From Halomonas ventosae (GTDB lineage: Bacteria > Pseudomonadota > Gammaproteobacteria > Pseudomonadales > Halomonadaceae), in the NCBI RefSeq assembly GCF_004363555.1, contig NZ_SNZJ01000009.1, positions 1 through 64,000 of the forward strand: a DNA stretch of 64,000 nucleotides, given 5' to 3'. The notes under the pieces were generated by a model. The model worked only from the letters and a program-made list of their open reading frames with translations. It was not told the DNA's origin and ran no database searches. Numbering within the stretch: position 1 is the first letter of the stretch; every line of letters starts with the position of its first letter. Shown piece after piece: positions 57,794-64,000 of this stretch. Position numbers and translations under genes: made by a program.

Positions 57794-57902
57794 CCCTTCC
57801 CGGCCGCCGGCATCGCGCCCGGCGGCATGGGCTATGCTTCGTCACGGCAGGCGCCGGCCGCTACCGGTGCCTGTCGCGATGCCCGGCGACACGGAGGCCA
57901 CC

Positions 57903-59150
57903 ATGCCCGAGCCCATCGGGGGGGTCCTGCCCGAACTGGGCGTGCATTCCGAGACCGGCACCCTGCGGCAGGTGATCGTCTGCCGTCCGGGCCTGGCCCA
58001 TCGGCGGCTGACGCCTTCCAACTGCCATGCCCTGCTGTTCGACGACGTCTTCTGGGTCAAGCAGGCCCAGCAGGATCATGACGTCCTTGCGGGCGTGATG
58101 CGGGACAAGGGCGTGGAGGTGCTCGACGTCAACGACCTGCTGGCCGAGACCCTCGATATCACGGAAGCCCGCGCCTGGGTGCTGGACCACCGGATCACCT
58201 GGAACCACATCGGGGTGGGGATGGTGTCCGACCTGCGCGCCTGGCTGGACGAGCTGCCGGGCGATGCCCTGGCCGGGTTCCTGGTCGGCGGGCTGGGGGT
58301 GAGGGACCTGCCGTTCGAGCCGGTGGGGCTGTTCGGCAACCACCTGGGGCATGCCGGCTTCGTGCTGCCGCCCCTGCCCAACTTCCTCTTCACCCGCGAC
58401 AGCAGCGCCTGGATCCATGGCGGGGTCACCCTCAATCCCATGCGCTGGGCCGCCCGCCAGCCCGAAACCCTGCTGATGGCGGCGGTCTATCGCTTCCATC
58501 CGGCCTTCGCGGGCCGGGTGAAGGTGCACTGGGGGGATCCCCTGGCGGACCACGGCCTCGCCACCCTCGAGGGCGGGGATGTCATGCCGGTGGGGCACGG
58601 CACGGTGCTGGTGGGCATGGGCGAGCGCTCCTCGCCCCAGGCCATCGGCCAGCTGGCGAAGGCGCTGTTCGACAGCGGCACGGCCGAGCGGGTGGTCGCC
58701 TGCCAGCTCCCCCGGTCCCGCTCGGCCATGCACCTGGACACGGTCTTTACCTTCTGTGGCGGCAACGTGGTGACCGCTTTCAGGGAGGTCGCGGAGGCGG
58801 TGGTCTGCTATGACCTGCGTCCCGGCGAGGGCGGCAGGACCCTGGCGTTCCGGCGGGACCCGCGCCGGCTGTTCGACATTGTCGCGGACATCCTGGGCTA
58901 CCCGGCGCTGGAGGTGGTGCCCACCGGCGGCGACACCCCGGAGGAACGCGAGCGCGAACAGTGGAACGACGGCAACAACGTGCTGGCGTTGAGCCCCGGT
59001 GTCGTCGTCGGCTATGACCGCAACGATGACACCAATGCGGCGCTCGAGGCGGCGGGTATCGAGGTGCTGGCCATTCCCGGCGCCGAGCTGGGAAGGGGAC
59101 GCGGCGGCGGGCGCTGCATGAGCTGCCCGACCCGTCGTGATCCTGTCTGA
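57903..59150 (+). CDS. arcA: Arginine deiminase
   Basis: A 415-residue arginine deiminase that converts arginine to citrulline and ammonia. Catalytic features include [22 protein letters not shown] (the His and Asp) and the nucleophile C405 in [12 protein letters not shown] at 57903 follows CGGAGG. Followed by arcC after 87 bp; no ornithine carbamoyltransferase gene (arcB) and no antiporter gene are between or beside them. Confidence 0.95.
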
Positions 59151-59237: not shown

Positions 59238-60149
59238 ATGCTGGTGGTGGCGGCACTGGGCGGCAACGCCCTCCTGAAGCGCGGGGAGCCGCTGACGGCC
59301 GCGGCGCAGCGGGCGAACGTGCAGGTGGCGGTCCGCGCGCTGGCCGAGATCGTGCGCGCCGGGCATCGCTTGGTGATCACCCATGGCAACGGCCCCCAGG
59401 TGGGCCTGCTGGCGCTGCAGGGCGCGGCCTATCGGCCGGACGAGGCCTATCCGCTGGACGTGCTGGGCGCCGAGACCGAGGGCATGATCGGCTACATGAT
59501 CGAGCAGGAGCTGGAGAACGCGCTCGACCATGACCGCCCGGTGGCCACCCTGCTGACCCAGGTGGTGGTGGATCCCCGGGATCCCGCCTTTGCCCATCCC
59601 ACCAAGTTCGTCGGGCCGGTCTACGAACGGGACGAGGCCGAGCGTCGCGCGGCGGCGGCCGGCTGGCAGATCGCCCGGGACGGCGACAAGTGGCGTCGGG
59701 TCGTGCCGTCGCCGACGCCGCTGGAGATCCCGGACCTGCGGGTGCTGCAGCTGCTGCTCGCCCAGGGCGTGGTGGTGGTCTGCACCGGGGGCGGCGGGAT
59801 CCCGGTCCTGCGCCGGGAGGATGGCAGCATGATCGGCGTGGAGGCGGTCATCGACAAGGACGCTGCCAGCGCGCTGCTGGCGCGCCAGCTGGGCGCCGAC
59901 GCCCTGCTGCTGCTGACCGATGTGGAGGCGGTGTACCGGGATTACGGCACGGACGCCGCGACCCCGGTTCACGAACTGACGGTTGTCCAGGCCCGGGAGA
60001 TGGCCCTGCCGGCCGGTTCCATGGGACCCAAGCTGGCGGCCGCCTGTGACTTTGCCGAAACTGGTGGTATCAGCGGCATCGGCCGGCTGGTCGATGCCGT
60101 CTCCATCCTCGAGGGAAGGGCGGGGACACGGGTGTCAGCCGACGCATAG
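59238..60149 (+). CDS. arcC: Carbamate kinase
   Basis: A 303-residue carbamate kinase, making ATP from carbamoyl phosphate and ADP in the arginine deiminase route. Typical segments are ALGGNALLKRGE, THGNGPQVGLLALQ, CTGGGGIPV and the C-terminal AGSMGPKLAAACDF. It is the second gene of an arcA-arcC pair. The missing middle step (citrulline to ornithine and carbamoyl phosphate) must be supplied from elsewhere. Confidence 0.95.
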   Translation: MLVVAALGGNALLKRGEPLTAAAQRANVQVAVRALAEIVRAGHRLVITHGNGPQVGLLALQGAAYRPDEAYPLDVLGAETEGMIGYMIEQELENALDHDRPVATLLTQVVVDPRDPAFAHPTKFVGPVYERDEAERRAAAAGWQIARDGDKWRRVVPSPTPLEIPDLRVLQLLLAQGVVVVCTGGGGIPVLRREDGSMIGVEAVIDKDAASALLARQLGADALLLLTDVEAVYRDYGTDAATPVHELTVVQAREMALPAGSMGPKLAAACDFAETGGISGIGRLVDAVSILEGRAGTRVSADA

Positions 60150-60183: not shown

Positions 60184-61533
60184 TCAACGGGCGCAGGTGC
60201 GAAAGCCGGCCAGGATGTCCTGGCGGTCCGGCGTGAAGAAGTTGCGGTAGCCGTTGTGGGCCAGCCGCGAGCGGGTGGCCCAGGCGCCGCCGCGCAGCAC
60301 GTAGCGCCCCTCCCGGAACCAGGGGGCCGAGTAGTCGCGGTAGAGCTCGGGTTCGAAACCCGGGAAGGGCGCGAAGGGCGAGGCCGTCCACTCCCAGACG
60401 TTGCCCAGCATCTGCCGGCAGCCGAAGGCGCTGTCGCCCTCGGGCAGCGCCGCCACGTCGAGCCGGCCCAGGCGCCAGGCGTCGAGGTTGGCGCGGGCGG
60501 CATCCGGCGGTGACTCGCCCCAGGGGAAGCGTCGCTTGCCGGGGGCGAGCGAGCCCCCGTCGGGTGACGGCGCCCGGCTGGCGGCGACCTCCCATTCCGC
60601 CTCGCTGGGCAGGCGTCGCCCGGCCCAGCGGCACCAGGCCTCGGCCTCGTGCCAGCCGACGTGCACGACCGGCTGGTGGGAAGCCAGCGGCCGCCAGCGG
60701 TCGAAGCAGCGCTCCTCCCAGTGGCCATCGGTGTCGCGGCGCCAGTAGATCGGCCCCTGCAGCGCCTGGTGCTCGCGCCACTGCCACCCGGCCTCGCTCC
60801 ACAGCTCGCGCCGCGCGTAGCCGCCGTCCTCGATGAAGGCGGCGTACTCTGCGTTGGTGACCGGCGCCCTGGCGATCGAGAAGGGCGCCACCTCGACCTC
60901 CAGGGGCGGCTTCTCGTTGTCGAAGCGGAAGGGCACGGCCTCGTCGGAGCCCAGCCGGTGGCGCCCGCCGGGGATGGCCACATCGCCGGGCAGGGGGCCG
61001 TTCGAGGCGGGAGCGGGACGCTGGCCCGGCAGTGGGGTGCCCAGGTCCGGGGCCGGGTCGCCCAGCGTCTGGCGGGTATAGAGGAAGGCCTCGCCGTGCA
61101 TGTCCTCGTGCAGGGTGGTGAGCTGGTAGACATAGCTCTGGGCGGCGCTCGCGGTGCCGTCGGGCAGGCGCTCGAGCATCGCCTGCTGTACCCGCGAGAG
61201 GTAGTCCAGGGTCTCGTCGCGGGAGGGCAGCGGTAGCGCCCAACGGTCGTCGTGGGCGATGCTGCTCGAATCGAACAGCCGGTCGGCGCCGGCGAGCTGG
61301 TAGTCGGGCAGGCCATGGAGGCCGCGCAGGGCGAAATGGTCGTGGAAGAAGCCCAGGTGGCCGAGCTCCCACAGCGGCGGGTTGACGATCGCCAGGCGCG
61401 GGCCCAGCTCGCGGGCCTCGAGGATGTCCTGCATCAGCGCCAGGCTGCGGGTGCGGGCATCGACGAGCATCGCCGCCAGCTCATCGGCGGCCCGCGGCGG
61501 CGTCGGTGGTGTGCCGAGAGGTGAAGAGGGCAT
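60184..61533 (-). CDS. senA: SenA-like selenoneine synthase (EgtB homologue)
   Basis: A 449-residue non-haem iron enzyme with the EgtB architecture. An N-terminal DinB-like domain supplies the three-histidine iron site (H59 in LWELGHLGFF, H142 and H146 in LHEDMH). A C-terminal formylglycine-enzyme-type domain covers about 175-449 and ends GNVWEWTASPF, LRGGAWATRS and FRTCAR. In the sen pathway SenA joins hercynine to a selenosugar to build selenoneine. The assignment to SenA rather than EgtB rests on its pairing with a SenB-like glycosyltransferase and SelD. Start at 61533, with GAGGA seven bases before. Hercynine (EgtD product) must come from outside the window. Confidence 0.85.
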   Translation of the reverse strand: MPSSPLGTPPTPPRAADELAAMLVDARTRSLALMQDILEARELGPRLAIVNPPLWELGHLGFFHDHFALRGLHGLPDYQLAGADRLFDSSSIAHDDRWALPLPSRDETLDYLSRVQQAMLERLPDGTASAAQSYVYQLTTLHEDMHGEAFLYTRQTLGDPAPDLGTPLPGQRPAPASNGPLPGDVAIPGGRHRLGSDEAVPFRFDNEKPPLEVEVAPFSIARAPVTNAEYAAFIEDGGYARRELWSEAGWQWREHQALQGPIYWRRDTDGHWEERCFDRWRPLASHQPVVHVGWHEAEAWCRWAGRRLPSEAEWEVAASRAPSPDGGSLAPGKRRFPWGESPPDAARANLDAWRLGRLDVAALPEGDSAFGCRQMLGNVWEWTASPFAPFPGFEPELYRDYSAPWFREGRYVLRGGAWATRSRLAHNGYRNFFTPDRQDILAGFRTCAR

Positions 61534-61540
61534 GCTGACT

Positions 61541-61550
61541 TCCTCGAGGA
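61541..61550. promoter_or_regulatory. Palindromic shared ribosome-binding site TCCTCGAGGA between senA and senB
   Basis: The 10-bp perfect palindrome lies in the 23 bp between the two divergent start codons. Read in either direction it supplies GAGGA: seven bases before the senA ATG (61533) and six before the senB ATG (61557). It is the only Shine-Dalgarno candidate for either gene. Confidence 0.75.
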
Positions 61551-61556
61551 GAGACC

Positions 61557-62552
61557 ATGGCATTGAAGGTAGCCCTGATCAGCCCGGCGGGTCGAGGCTC
61601 ACGAGCCGGCAACCGCGCCACGGCGACCCGCTGGGCGGGCCTGCTGCGGACGCTGGGCTGCCGGGTGCGGATCGCCGGCGCCGAGGAGGACACCGACCGT
61701 TGGCAGATCGCCGGCCAGCCGCCCGACCTGGTGATGGCGCTGCATGCCTGGCGCAGCCATAGGGCCATCCGCACCGCTCGCCGGGCCTTCCCGGGCTGCC
61801 CCCTGGTGGTGGTGCTGACGGGCACCGACGTCTATCGCTTCCAGCACAGTCATCCCGAGGCGTTCGAGGAGAGCCTGGCGGCGGCGGATGCCCTGGTCGG
61901 CCTGCATGACCGCCTGGCCGAGGACCTTCCCCCGCGTTTCCTGTCGCGGCTGCAGGTCGTCCACCAGTCGGCGCAGCCGCTACCTCCGCATGCCCCGCGG
62001 CCGGGTCGCCGGCATCTGGACGTGCTGGTGGCGGGCCACCTGCGCGAGGAGAAGGACCCGCTGCGCGCGGCGCTTGCGGTGCGCGACCTGCCGGCGGACT
62101 CGCGGCTGCGGGTCATCCAGCTGGGCGGTGCCCTGGACGAGGCCTGGGCCAGGGCGGCCCGTGACGAGATGGCGGGCAACCCCCGCTACCGCTGGCTGGG
62201 TGACCAGCCTCGCTGGCGGGTGCGACGGTGGATGGCCCGGGCCCGGCTGATGGTGATCAGCTCGCGCATGGAGGGGGGCGCCAACGTGGTCAGCGAGGCC
62301 TGCGTGGCGGGCCTGCCGGTGCTGGCCTCCGACATCCCGGGCAACCGCGGCCTGCTGGGCGAGGACTATGTCGGCTACTTCCCGGTCGCCGATACCGCGG
62401 CGCTTGGCGACCTGCTGCGCCGCGCCGAGACCGAGCCGGCCTTCGTCGAGGGCCTGCGCCGCCAGGTGCTGGCGCGTGCGCCGCTGTTCACTCCCGAGGC
62501 CGAGCGTGAGGGGCTGGCGCGGGTCATCGTCGCCTGCGGGCTCACCCCCTGA
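61557..62552 (+). CDS. senB: SenB-like selenosugar synthase (GT4-type glycosyltransferase)
   Basis: A 331-residue glycosyltransferase-fold protein. The N-terminus KVALISPAGRGSRAGNRATATRWAGLLR and the C-terminal donor-site segment EGGANVVSEACVAGLPVLASDIPGNRG fit the two-domain GT4/GT-B type found beside SelD. In the sen pathway SenB uses selenophosphate and a UDP-sugar to make 1-seleno-N-acetylglucosamine. Its neighbours senA and the SelD fusion support this reading; motifs alone would only say glycosyltransferase. It is divergent from senA and convergent with the selD gene, 43 bp apart. Confidence 0.85.
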   Translation: MALKVALISPAGRGSRAGNRATATRWAGLLRTLGCRVRIAGAEEDTDRWQIAGQPPDLVMALHAWRSHRAIRTARRAFPGCPLVVVLTGTDVYRFQHSHPEAFEESLAAADALVGLHDRLAEDLPPRFLSRLQVVHQSAQPLPPHAPRPGRRHLDVLVAGHLREEKDPLRAALAVRDLPADSRLRVIQLGGALDEAWARAARDEMAGNPRYRWLGDQPRWRVRRWMARARLMVISSRMEGGANVVSEACVAGLPVLASDIPGNRGLLGEDYVGYFPVADTAALGDLLRRAETEPAFVEGLRRQVLARAPLFTPEAEREGLARVIVACGLTP

Positions 62553-62595
62553 TGCCGTCCCGCCCCCGGCTCCCTCTGCCCGCCATCATCGGTCC

Positions 62596-64000
62596 TCAGC
62601 CCCTCAGGTGGATGGGCTCCAGCGCCTCGCCGGGGTCGAGGACCCGACCGATGACGGCGGCCCGGGCATAGCCCAGGGCATGCAGGGCGTCCAGGCAGGC
62701 CCCGGCGCGTTCGGCGGGCACGCTGGCCAGCAGGCCGCCGGCGGTCTGGGGGTCGAAGAGCAGCGGGTAGCGGGGGTGGTCGACCCACGCGGCCTGGTCG
62801 CGGATGGCCCGGCGCAGGCGCACGTTGGCGGGCTGCAGGGAGCTCAGGATGCCGGCGGCCACGGTCTCCTCCGCGCCCTCGAGCAGCGGCAGGGCGGCCA
62901 GGTCGAGTTCGGCATCCACGCCCGAGGGACGGGTCATCTCCACCAGGTGCCCCAGCAGGCCGAAGCCGGTGAGGTCGGTGCAGGCGGTGGCGCCGTGCTC
63001 CCGCAGGCAGTTCGCCGCCTGGCGGCTGGACTGGCTCATGCTCGTGAGTGCCGCATCGATCCAGCGCCCGCGGGCGGCGAGCCGCGCATGGGCGGCGAAC
63101 AGGGTGCCGGTGCCGATGGGCTTGGTCAGGATCAGCGCCTGGCCGGGCCGCAGGCCGCCCTTCGTCAGGGCGCTGTCGCCGCCGGCATCGATCAGGCCAT
63201 TGACGGCAAAGCCCAGGGCCAGCTCGCTGCCCTCGCCGGTGTGCCCGCCGACCAGGGCGCAGCCGGCCTCGTTGAGCACCTCCACGGCGCCGGCCATCAT
63301 CTGGTAGACGGTGTCCTCCACCTTGGCCTCGAGCCCATGGGGCACCGTGGCCACGGCGGTGGCGGTCTGCGCCTCGGCGCCCATGGCGAAGATGTCGCCC
63401 AGGGCGTGGTTGGCGGCGATCCTGCCGAACACATAGGGGTCGTCGATGAAGGCGCGGAAGAAGTCGATGGTATGCACCATGTCCTTGCCCGGCGGTACCC
63501 GCACCACGGCGGCGTCGTCCGGGGCATGCAGGCCGACCAGGACCTCCTCGCGCGCCACCGGCTCCAGGGTCGAGAGGGCCCGGGAGAGCACCGAGGCGCC
63601 CACCTTGGCCCCGCAGCCGCCGCAGCGCATGGCAATGGCCGAGATCGCCTGGCTGTGCTCCTCCTCGTCCAGCACCACCCGGCTGGGGGGCGGGGCCTTC
63701 ATGGTGTCCTGCATCATGGGCGGCAGGTCGTTGAAGCGGGCCATGAAGCGCCGGTCGATGAAGTCCTTCCAGCGCCATACCCAGTCGCCGGCCAGGCACA
63801 TCGCGCCCCGGGAGGCCACGGCGTGGCGGTCGCCGGTGCTGATCAGGGCCAGCCATCTCGCCTGGGGGCGGTAGGGGGTGAGGGGACGGCCGGTCACGGC
63901 GGCGCGCAGGTTGTCGGCCAGCGGTCGGCCCTGGCGCACGGCGAAGACCCCGGCCTTCTCGCGGGGATGGTTGACCTGGGTGGCGATGTCGCCGGCGGCG
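62596..64000 (-). CDS. selD: Selenide, water dikinase fused to an N-terminal FAD/NADH dehydrogenase-like domain (5' part outside window)
   Basis: The gene runs off the window. Visible are the end of a flavoprotein oxidoreductase domain (AGDIATQVNHPREKAG, VFAVRQGRPLADNLR, ALISTGDRHAVASRG) and then a full SelD domain. SelD motifs are CGGCGAKVG with the catalytic Cys and Lys, DDAAVVRVPPGKDMVHTIDFF, and VGGHTGEGSELALGF, with a C-terminus FDPQTAGGLLASVP. SelD makes selenophosphate from selenide and ATP. The fusion is known in many bacteria, where the flavin domain may reduce selenium species. It supplies selenophosphate for SenB and acts as SenC of the cluster; it could also serve tRNA or selenocysteine selenation. 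Confidence 0.93.
   Translation of the reverse strand, partial: AAGDIATQVNHPREKAGVFAVRQGRPLADNLRAAVTGRPLTPYRPQARWLALISTGDRHAVASRGAMCLAGDWVWRWKDFIDRRFMARFNDLPPMMQDTMKAPPPSRVVLDEEEHSQAISAIAMRCGGCGAKVGASVLSRALSTLEPVAREEVLVGLHAPDDAAVVRVPPGKDMVHTIDFFRAFIDDPYVFGRIAANHALGDIFAMGAEAQTATAVATVPHGLEAKVEDTVYQMMAGAVEVLNEAGCALVGGHTGEGSELALGFAVNGLIDAGGDSALTKGGLRPGQALILTKPIGTGTLFAAHARLAARGRWIDAALTSMSQSSRQAANCLREHGATACTDLTGFGLLGHLVEMTRPSGVDAELDLAALPLLEGAEETVAAGILSSLQPANVRLRRAIRDQAAWVDHPRYPLLFDPQTAGGLLASVPAERAGACLDALHALGYARAAVIGRVLDPGEALEPIHLRG

Follow-up and report, generated by a model that had tools for sequence, protein, structure and literature searches.

A predicted selenoneine gene cluster with a flavoprotein-fused selenophosphate synthetase and an adjoining egtD in Halomonas ventosae

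The end of a 64,000-nucleotide stretch of Halomonas ventosae DNA (contig NZ_SNZJ01000009.1, positions 1 to 64,000; this whole stretch is called the window) carries genes for an EgtB-like iron enzyme, a glycosyltransferase and a selenophosphate synthetase (SelD) fused to a flavoprotein, and the question raised by this locus is whether these genes serve selenoneine, ovoselenol or ergothioneine, and what the flavoprotein contributes. A sequence-only reading had proposed a SenA/SenB/SelD selenoneine cluster with hercynine supplied from an egtD located elsewhere or from the environment. Our analysis suggests that this is very probably a selenoneine cluster of the known kind, with SelD as an Ndh-fused variant (Ndh-SelD) and with egtD in place, and we consider it highly probable, judging from the sequence, that the cluster and egtD together form a chromosomal selenoneine pathway predicted to be complete from histidine and inorganic selenium. 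Coordinates are collected in Table 1.

All three proteins named in that reading were recovered, with E-values for the SenA, SenB and SelD matches of 4e-87 to 4e-154, which is far beyond chance. The EgtB-like protein is composed of FGE-sulfatase and DinB_2 domains, and its three-histidine iron site is present with H69, H152 and H156 kept as the predicted ligands; it scored 513.6 bits against the NCBIfam SenA model NF041186 (cut-off 420) in comparison to 320.2 bits against the EgtB model TIGR03440, where it missed the cut-off of 360. The GT4-type glycosyltransferase is SenB by model TIGR04348 (397.6 bits, cut-off 300), and its residues N19, T22, K166 and E239 correspond in the alignment, counted by hand, to N20, T23, K158 and E231 of Variovorax paradoxus SenB, whose roles are described in the abstract of PMC10891094. 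The fused arrangement of SelD also held: the window end interrupts this gene, and once the sequence beyond the edge was read for 11 kb, which completed the fusion and revealed egtD, the frame was found to run to about 64929 (L002:7596-9929; alternative start 64890) with 777 aa, passing both the flavoprotein model TIGR03169 Nterm_to_SelD (510.4 bits, cut-off 310) and the SelD model TIGR00476 (292.3 bits, cut-off 125) and missing TIGR04369 'fusion_not_SelD' (466 bits, cut-off 700).

The placement of the EgtB-like protein was assessed by a tree test set in advance. In the main tree, of 55 rows chosen by hand from 102, the protein fell on the SenA/OvsA side, which was split from the EgtB rows with a support of 100/100, and its own clade, shared with Halomonas and Ectothiorhodospiraceae relatives, was supported at 99/100; an earlier SenA tree omitted the short rows L024, L092, L096 and L110, rows below 140 bits, and duplicate loci. 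Y408 aligns with EgtB Tyr377, and M155 stands at a site where all nine EgtB rows have Gln. An ordinary EgtB making ergothioneine, with senB and selD as chance neighbours, would have the fold in common with the window enzyme, would fit the 320 bits on the EgtB model and the presence of egtD nearby, and is also slightly preferred over SenA in the PDB search (EgtB 4x8b with 255 bits in comparison to 250 for SenA). However, the model cut-offs, M155 and the tree all speak against it, and so does the linkage of senB, which is found in 61 of 80 related loci, the best of 454 from named genomes; among the 19 loci without linked senB, 18 were checked genome-wide (L110 was left out), and senB was over the cut-off elsewhere in 13 of these genomes, with only matches below the cut-off in three and none in two. 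We therefore give the ergothioneine explanation next to no credence.

The hercynine source expected by the sequence-only reading proved to be much closer than supposed, since the look-up for egtD, named beforehand, found it as the next gene after the fusion (405.6 bits, cut-off 290.9) and as the only EgtD match in the 4.02-Mb, 99.97% complete genome. In a genus set of 37 genomes, SenA was over the cut-off in 10, with a contig-edge fragment in an eleventh (G003, which has an additional 167-bit match in a 723-aa frame), and SenB was over the cut-off in the same 11; EgtD was over the cut-off in 16, with a fragment in G003. These EgtD carriers comprise the 11 sen genomes together with 6 whose egtD lies beside the gene of an EgtB-type protein (345 to 360 bits against the SenA model), and EgtD was found in none of the other 20. 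The six egtB genomes have no senB over the cut-off, which again argues against an EgtB with chance neighbours; they share EgtD and the EgtB fold with the window, where SenA takes the place of EgtB and M155 that of Gln. The association of egtD with either sen or egtB gave p 6e-11, calculated without ancestry correction, and sen genes neighbour egtD in 11 of 11 genus sen loci. No genome of the 37 has both sen and the EgtB-type protein; by itself this exclusion does not reach significance (p 0.15).

The SenA model alone cannot separate selenoneine enzymes from ovoselenol enzymes, and the SenA label drawn from NCBIfam alone was abandoned because the OvsA-type proteins L130 (436.0 bits) and L108 (420.3 bits) reach the same cut-off. 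OvsA of Halomonas utahensis, which leads to ovoselenol and is a selenoxide synthase by the titles of PDB 8u41 and 8u42, has the same fold and side of the tree as the window protein, which might itself be an OvsA, an alternative absent from the sequence-only reading; its cluster would form a carbon-selenium bond on histidine and then N-methylate the ring. Several results weigh in this direction and against selenoneine: OvsA gave the top PDB match (8ux5 variant 324 bits and 8u41 314 bits, in comparison to 250 for SenA); it also came first in a fold search made with the AlphaFold model of the window protein (mean predicted local distance difference test score, pLDDT, 78.0), which was used for this purpose solely; the tree does not resolve the order among the window clade, betaproteobacterial SenA and OvsA; and H. 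utahensis belongs to the Halomonadaceae, as does Halomonas jincaotanensis (L034), whose locus, within the best 80 of 454 related ones, is the closest from a named organism, with a SenA 81% identical.

The active site points the other way. At the sites of OvsA M401, Q430 and A431 the window protein has Y411, N441 and F442, which is the triad of 8ux5, titled in the PDB as OvsA M401Y/Q430N/A431F, 'a hercynine-binding variant with selenoneine-biosynthetic activity', so that the window enzyme naturally holds the residues engineered into OvsA for hercynine binding; the best PDB match was abandoned as a guide to identity because 8ux5 is an engineered variant. The same triad occurs in 12 of 13 window-clade rows (those reaching that far), Y and N occur in all 14 betaproteobacterial SenA rows with F as third residue in 12 and Y in 2, and M/Q/A occurs in all three genomic OvsA rows. 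OvsA forms a separate clade (100/100) outside which the window protein lies, and although its reference in the trees, 8ux5, is a triple mutant, three natural OvsA rows still form a clade with it. The window protein is about 38% identical to 8ryz (SenA) and 43% to 8ux5, to which the genomic OvsA L014 is 60% identical. Furthermore, the window cluster adjoins egtD, whereas the OvsA of one genome (G055) adjoins an ovoA_Cterm-type 4-mercaptohistidine N1-methyltransferase (TIGR04345, 299.4 bits, cut-off 170; one locus); no ovoA_Cterm methyltransferase was found among the scanned neighbours of the window cluster, the whole genome not having been searched for TIGR04345. Taken at the sequence level, the active-site residues, the egtD neighbour and the genome co-occurrence argue for selenoneine over ovoselenol, which we judge highly improbable, and the triad would seem to decide better than either the NCBIfam model or a branching order that the tree leaves open. 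A rule combining residues and neighbours may thus separate SenA from OvsA, the neighbour part being drawn from one OvsA locus.

Further arrangements of OvsA-type genes were observed. In L060, SenA-like and OvsA-like genes lie side by side on one contig (75-1403 on the plus strand and 1485-2846 on the minus strand). L108:2852-9684, from a metagenome-assembled genome of Verrucomicrobiales, is an OvsA/senB/selD locus whose SelD has a TGA at the catalytic site and which has a gene for a nitric oxide synthase oxygenase close by. In G055, one locus (L139, contig C12) has senB, Ndh-SelD and a transporter trio, a second (L130, contig C10) has OvsA and the methyltransferase, and judging by the two, selenosugar supply would seem to form a module of its own.

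With selenoneine as the favoured product, each reaction can be assigned by analogy with characterised homologues to genes whose identities, active-site residues, co-occurrence and neighbourhood were directly observed. EgtD would trimethylate histidine to hercynine; Ndh-SelD would convert selenide and adenosine triphosphate (ATP) to selenophosphate, with the flavin domain probably giving reducing power at the entry of selenium, directly or through the CxxC of the SelD site; SenB would make a selenosugar from a uridine diphosphate sugar and selenophosphate; and SenA, with iron and O2, would join the selenium of this sugar to the imidazole of hercynine, the resulting selenoxide then decaying to selenoneine. 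In comparison to the senABC system of V. paradoxus (SenA 8k5i and 8ryz, SenB 8jjn and 8fbx), the window is alike in the SenA and SenB families, the catalytic residues and the SelD-type synthetase, and differs in that its SelD is Ndh-fused with CxxC and not standalone with CxC, that the fusion is convergent to senB, and that egtD adjoins. The genes of the cluster alternate in strand and a scan found no promoter or terminator pattern, so that any co-expression is supposition, and an Rfam scan of 20 kb gave no match at gathering scores. In the papers searched by full text we found none joining selenoneine with Halomonas, or selenoneine with NADH dehydrogenase and SelD, and published sen clusters may nevertheless include some in which SelD is fused or egtD present.

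The fusion itself belongs to a published type, having the same domain order and CxxC as the Ndh-SelD proteins described by Zhang and Gladyshev in 2008 (PMC2398784) and Mariotti in 2015 (PMC4561486). Its SelD site reads C436-x-x-C439 with K442, and these three residues are kept in all 29 distinct full fusions, which were retained from 40 matches after 10 incomplete and 1 identical were dropped. Among 24 rows of standalone SelD, 18 (17 genes) have CxC (GCGC) instead, 5 from sen or ovs loci carry TGA in place of the catalytic codon (in three of these a Cys precedes it by three residues), and one (L100) can be read in neither form; the TGA forms are probably selenocysteine SelDs. That Ndh-SelD has CxxC, a motif rare in single-domain SelD, was already reported in PMC2398784, and the motif was therefore dropped as a novelty. 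The flavin domain of the window fusion has three Cys, none of them invariant among the 29 fusions, which makes a glutathione-reductase-like dithiol mechanism within that domain unlikely and suggests an NDH-like one instead; an AlphaFold model of the fusion (mean pLDDT 56.5) was not used. We infer that electrons from reduced nicotinamide adenine dinucleotide or its phosphate (NAD(P)H) would pass via flavin adenine dinucleotide to a selenium substrate or to the CxxC, and which substrate the flavin domain would reduce, with selenite or selenodisulfide as candidates in the sequence-only reading, is pure inference.

To see how far the fusion goes with sen genes, a class-wide sample of 274 genomes was used, with SenB counted over its cut-off and the Ndh domain at E <= 1e-70. 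The results showed SenB in 18 genomes, the Ndh domain in 39 (36 over its own cut-off) and both in 17, with a Fisher p of 1.8e-15, or 1.2e-14 without the window genome; G257 is the sole SenB genome without the Ndh domain. In 16 of the 17 the Ndh domain lies in a frame of fusion length (fusions in this sample were judged by frame length, the SelD half not being scanned there), and in 15 both lie on one contig with 1.1 to 3.5 kb between the matches. Of the 80 best related loci (out of 454), 12 have the fusion, all with senB. Where a locus holds senA, senB and the fusion, the fusion and senB converge in 21 of 23 cases, including those of Halomonas, Ectothiorhodospiraceae and alphaproteobacteria; where it holds senA, senB and a standalone selD, the last two run in the same direction in 15 of 22 cases (14 betaproteobacterial and 1 from a Rubrobacteraceae metagenome-assembled genome); for L124 and L125 the listed gene order is shifted by stop-to-stop frame ends and the strands agree. 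In the genus set the fusion is present at 10 of 11 sen loci. A flavin-fused SelD is thus usual in such sen clusters. In one genome, G182 (C1:1011737-1016564), 2.8 kb lie between SenB and an Ndh-type protein that appears to be unfused (446-aa frame).

Based on these observations selenoneine supply is a candidate role for Ndh-SelD. Other results stand against a dedicated role: 22 of the 39 Ndh genomes of the class sample have no SenB, 14 of them with a frame of fusion length, showing that the fusion has other uses and that about half of the fusions of the sample are outside sen-bearing genomes; the genus genomes G011 and G027 have the fusion without sen, and G002, the exception among the sen loci, has sen without the fusion in an assembly 79% complete; and the Fisher tests ignore shared ancestry. 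The fusion might then serve mainly transfer RNA (tRNA) selenouridine or another use of selenium, with SenB fed by a standalone SelD. This we think unlikely in the window genome, where the standalone selD (414.5 bits, contig 28) lies beside selU/mnmH, the gene of tRNA 2-selenouridine synthase (412.5 bits, cut-off 361), and the closeness of the Ndh domain to senB (less than 3.6 kb in the 15 genomes) and their convergent order also argue against it. A search of the window genome for selA found none, and together with the position of the standalone selD this leaves the fusion free for another use. The selenium uses that were searched for and predicted in this genome would then be selenoneine, served by the fusion, and tRNA selenouridine, served by the standalone SelD.

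We accordingly propose, tentatively and at somewhat below an even chance, that Ndh-SelD in sen-bearing Gammaproteobacteria is a SenC dedicated to selenoneine, an enzyme driven by NAD(P)H and flavin which would reduce CxxC-held selenium and phosphorylate it in one polypeptide, apart from the SelD of tRNA selenouridine. Ndh-SelD is abundant in aquatic bacteria and has had no settled role since 2008, when the survey in PMC2398784 attributed to it about 40% of the SelDs with Cys found in ocean samples and called its functions 'not fully clear'; the relevant passages of PMC2398784 and PMC4561486 tie it to selenophosphate in general and do not mention selenoneine. The tie between Ndh-SelD and sen is the most useful new lead from this locus, in that it gives Ndh-SelD a concrete and testable role.

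Table 1. Genes at and just beyond the end of the window, in window coordinates.
Feature	Position	Strand	Remarks
Arginine deiminase	57834-59150	+	PRK01388 532.6 bits (cut-off 414); TIGR01078 454.5 bits (cut-off 489, missed)
Carbamate kinase	59238-60149	+	Beside senA
senA	60184-61563	-	Predicted selenoneine synthase, non-heme iron enzyme coupling selenosugar and hercynine
senA start candidates	Met1 = 61563, Met11 = 61533, Met32 = 61470		Uncertain
senB	61557-62552	+	Selenosugar synthase, TIGR04348, GT4 protein
Ndh-SelD fusion (senC role), part in window	62596-64000	-	Flavoprotein TIGR03169 and selenophosphate synthetase
egtD	64988-65965	+	Past the window end by about 1 kb; gap of 58 bp to the outermost start candidate of the fusion

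In this arrangement senA and senB are divergent with starts that overlap or abut, and 43 bp separate senB from the convergent fusion. The arginine deiminase genes noted earlier beside the cluster do directly adjoin it, as an arginine deiminase and a carbamate kinase gene; a functional link was rejected as local, for only three of the 11 genus sen loci (L002, L122 and L123) have arcA/arcC next to sen. An ATP-binding cassette (ABC) transporter set takes the arc position in 5 of the other 8 (L121, L124 and L126-L128), and an ABC transporter trio adjoins sen or the fusion in L034 (7436-10444), L035 (7385-10406), L039, L070, L121, L124, L126-L128, L139 and L141. The binding protein of this trio in L034, the only copy scored, matches TIGR04553 'putative selenate' with 393 bits (cut-off 250). 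The window genome has a putative selenate-transporter binding protein of the same family (392 bits) on contig 13, away from sen.

Beyond egtD there is an IS481 transposase and then a tetrathionate-reductase-like ttrABC set, a molybdoenzyme set next to egtD or the fusion (L002:12045-17170, which is 67045-72170 in window numbering). It misses all three tetrathionate reductase cut-offs (1308 bits against 1750, 404.7 against 416 and 191 against 314), and its TtrA-like gene recurs in seven loci (L002, L122, L123, L125, L126, L140 and L141), two of them without sen. This set could be a selenium oxyanion reductase.

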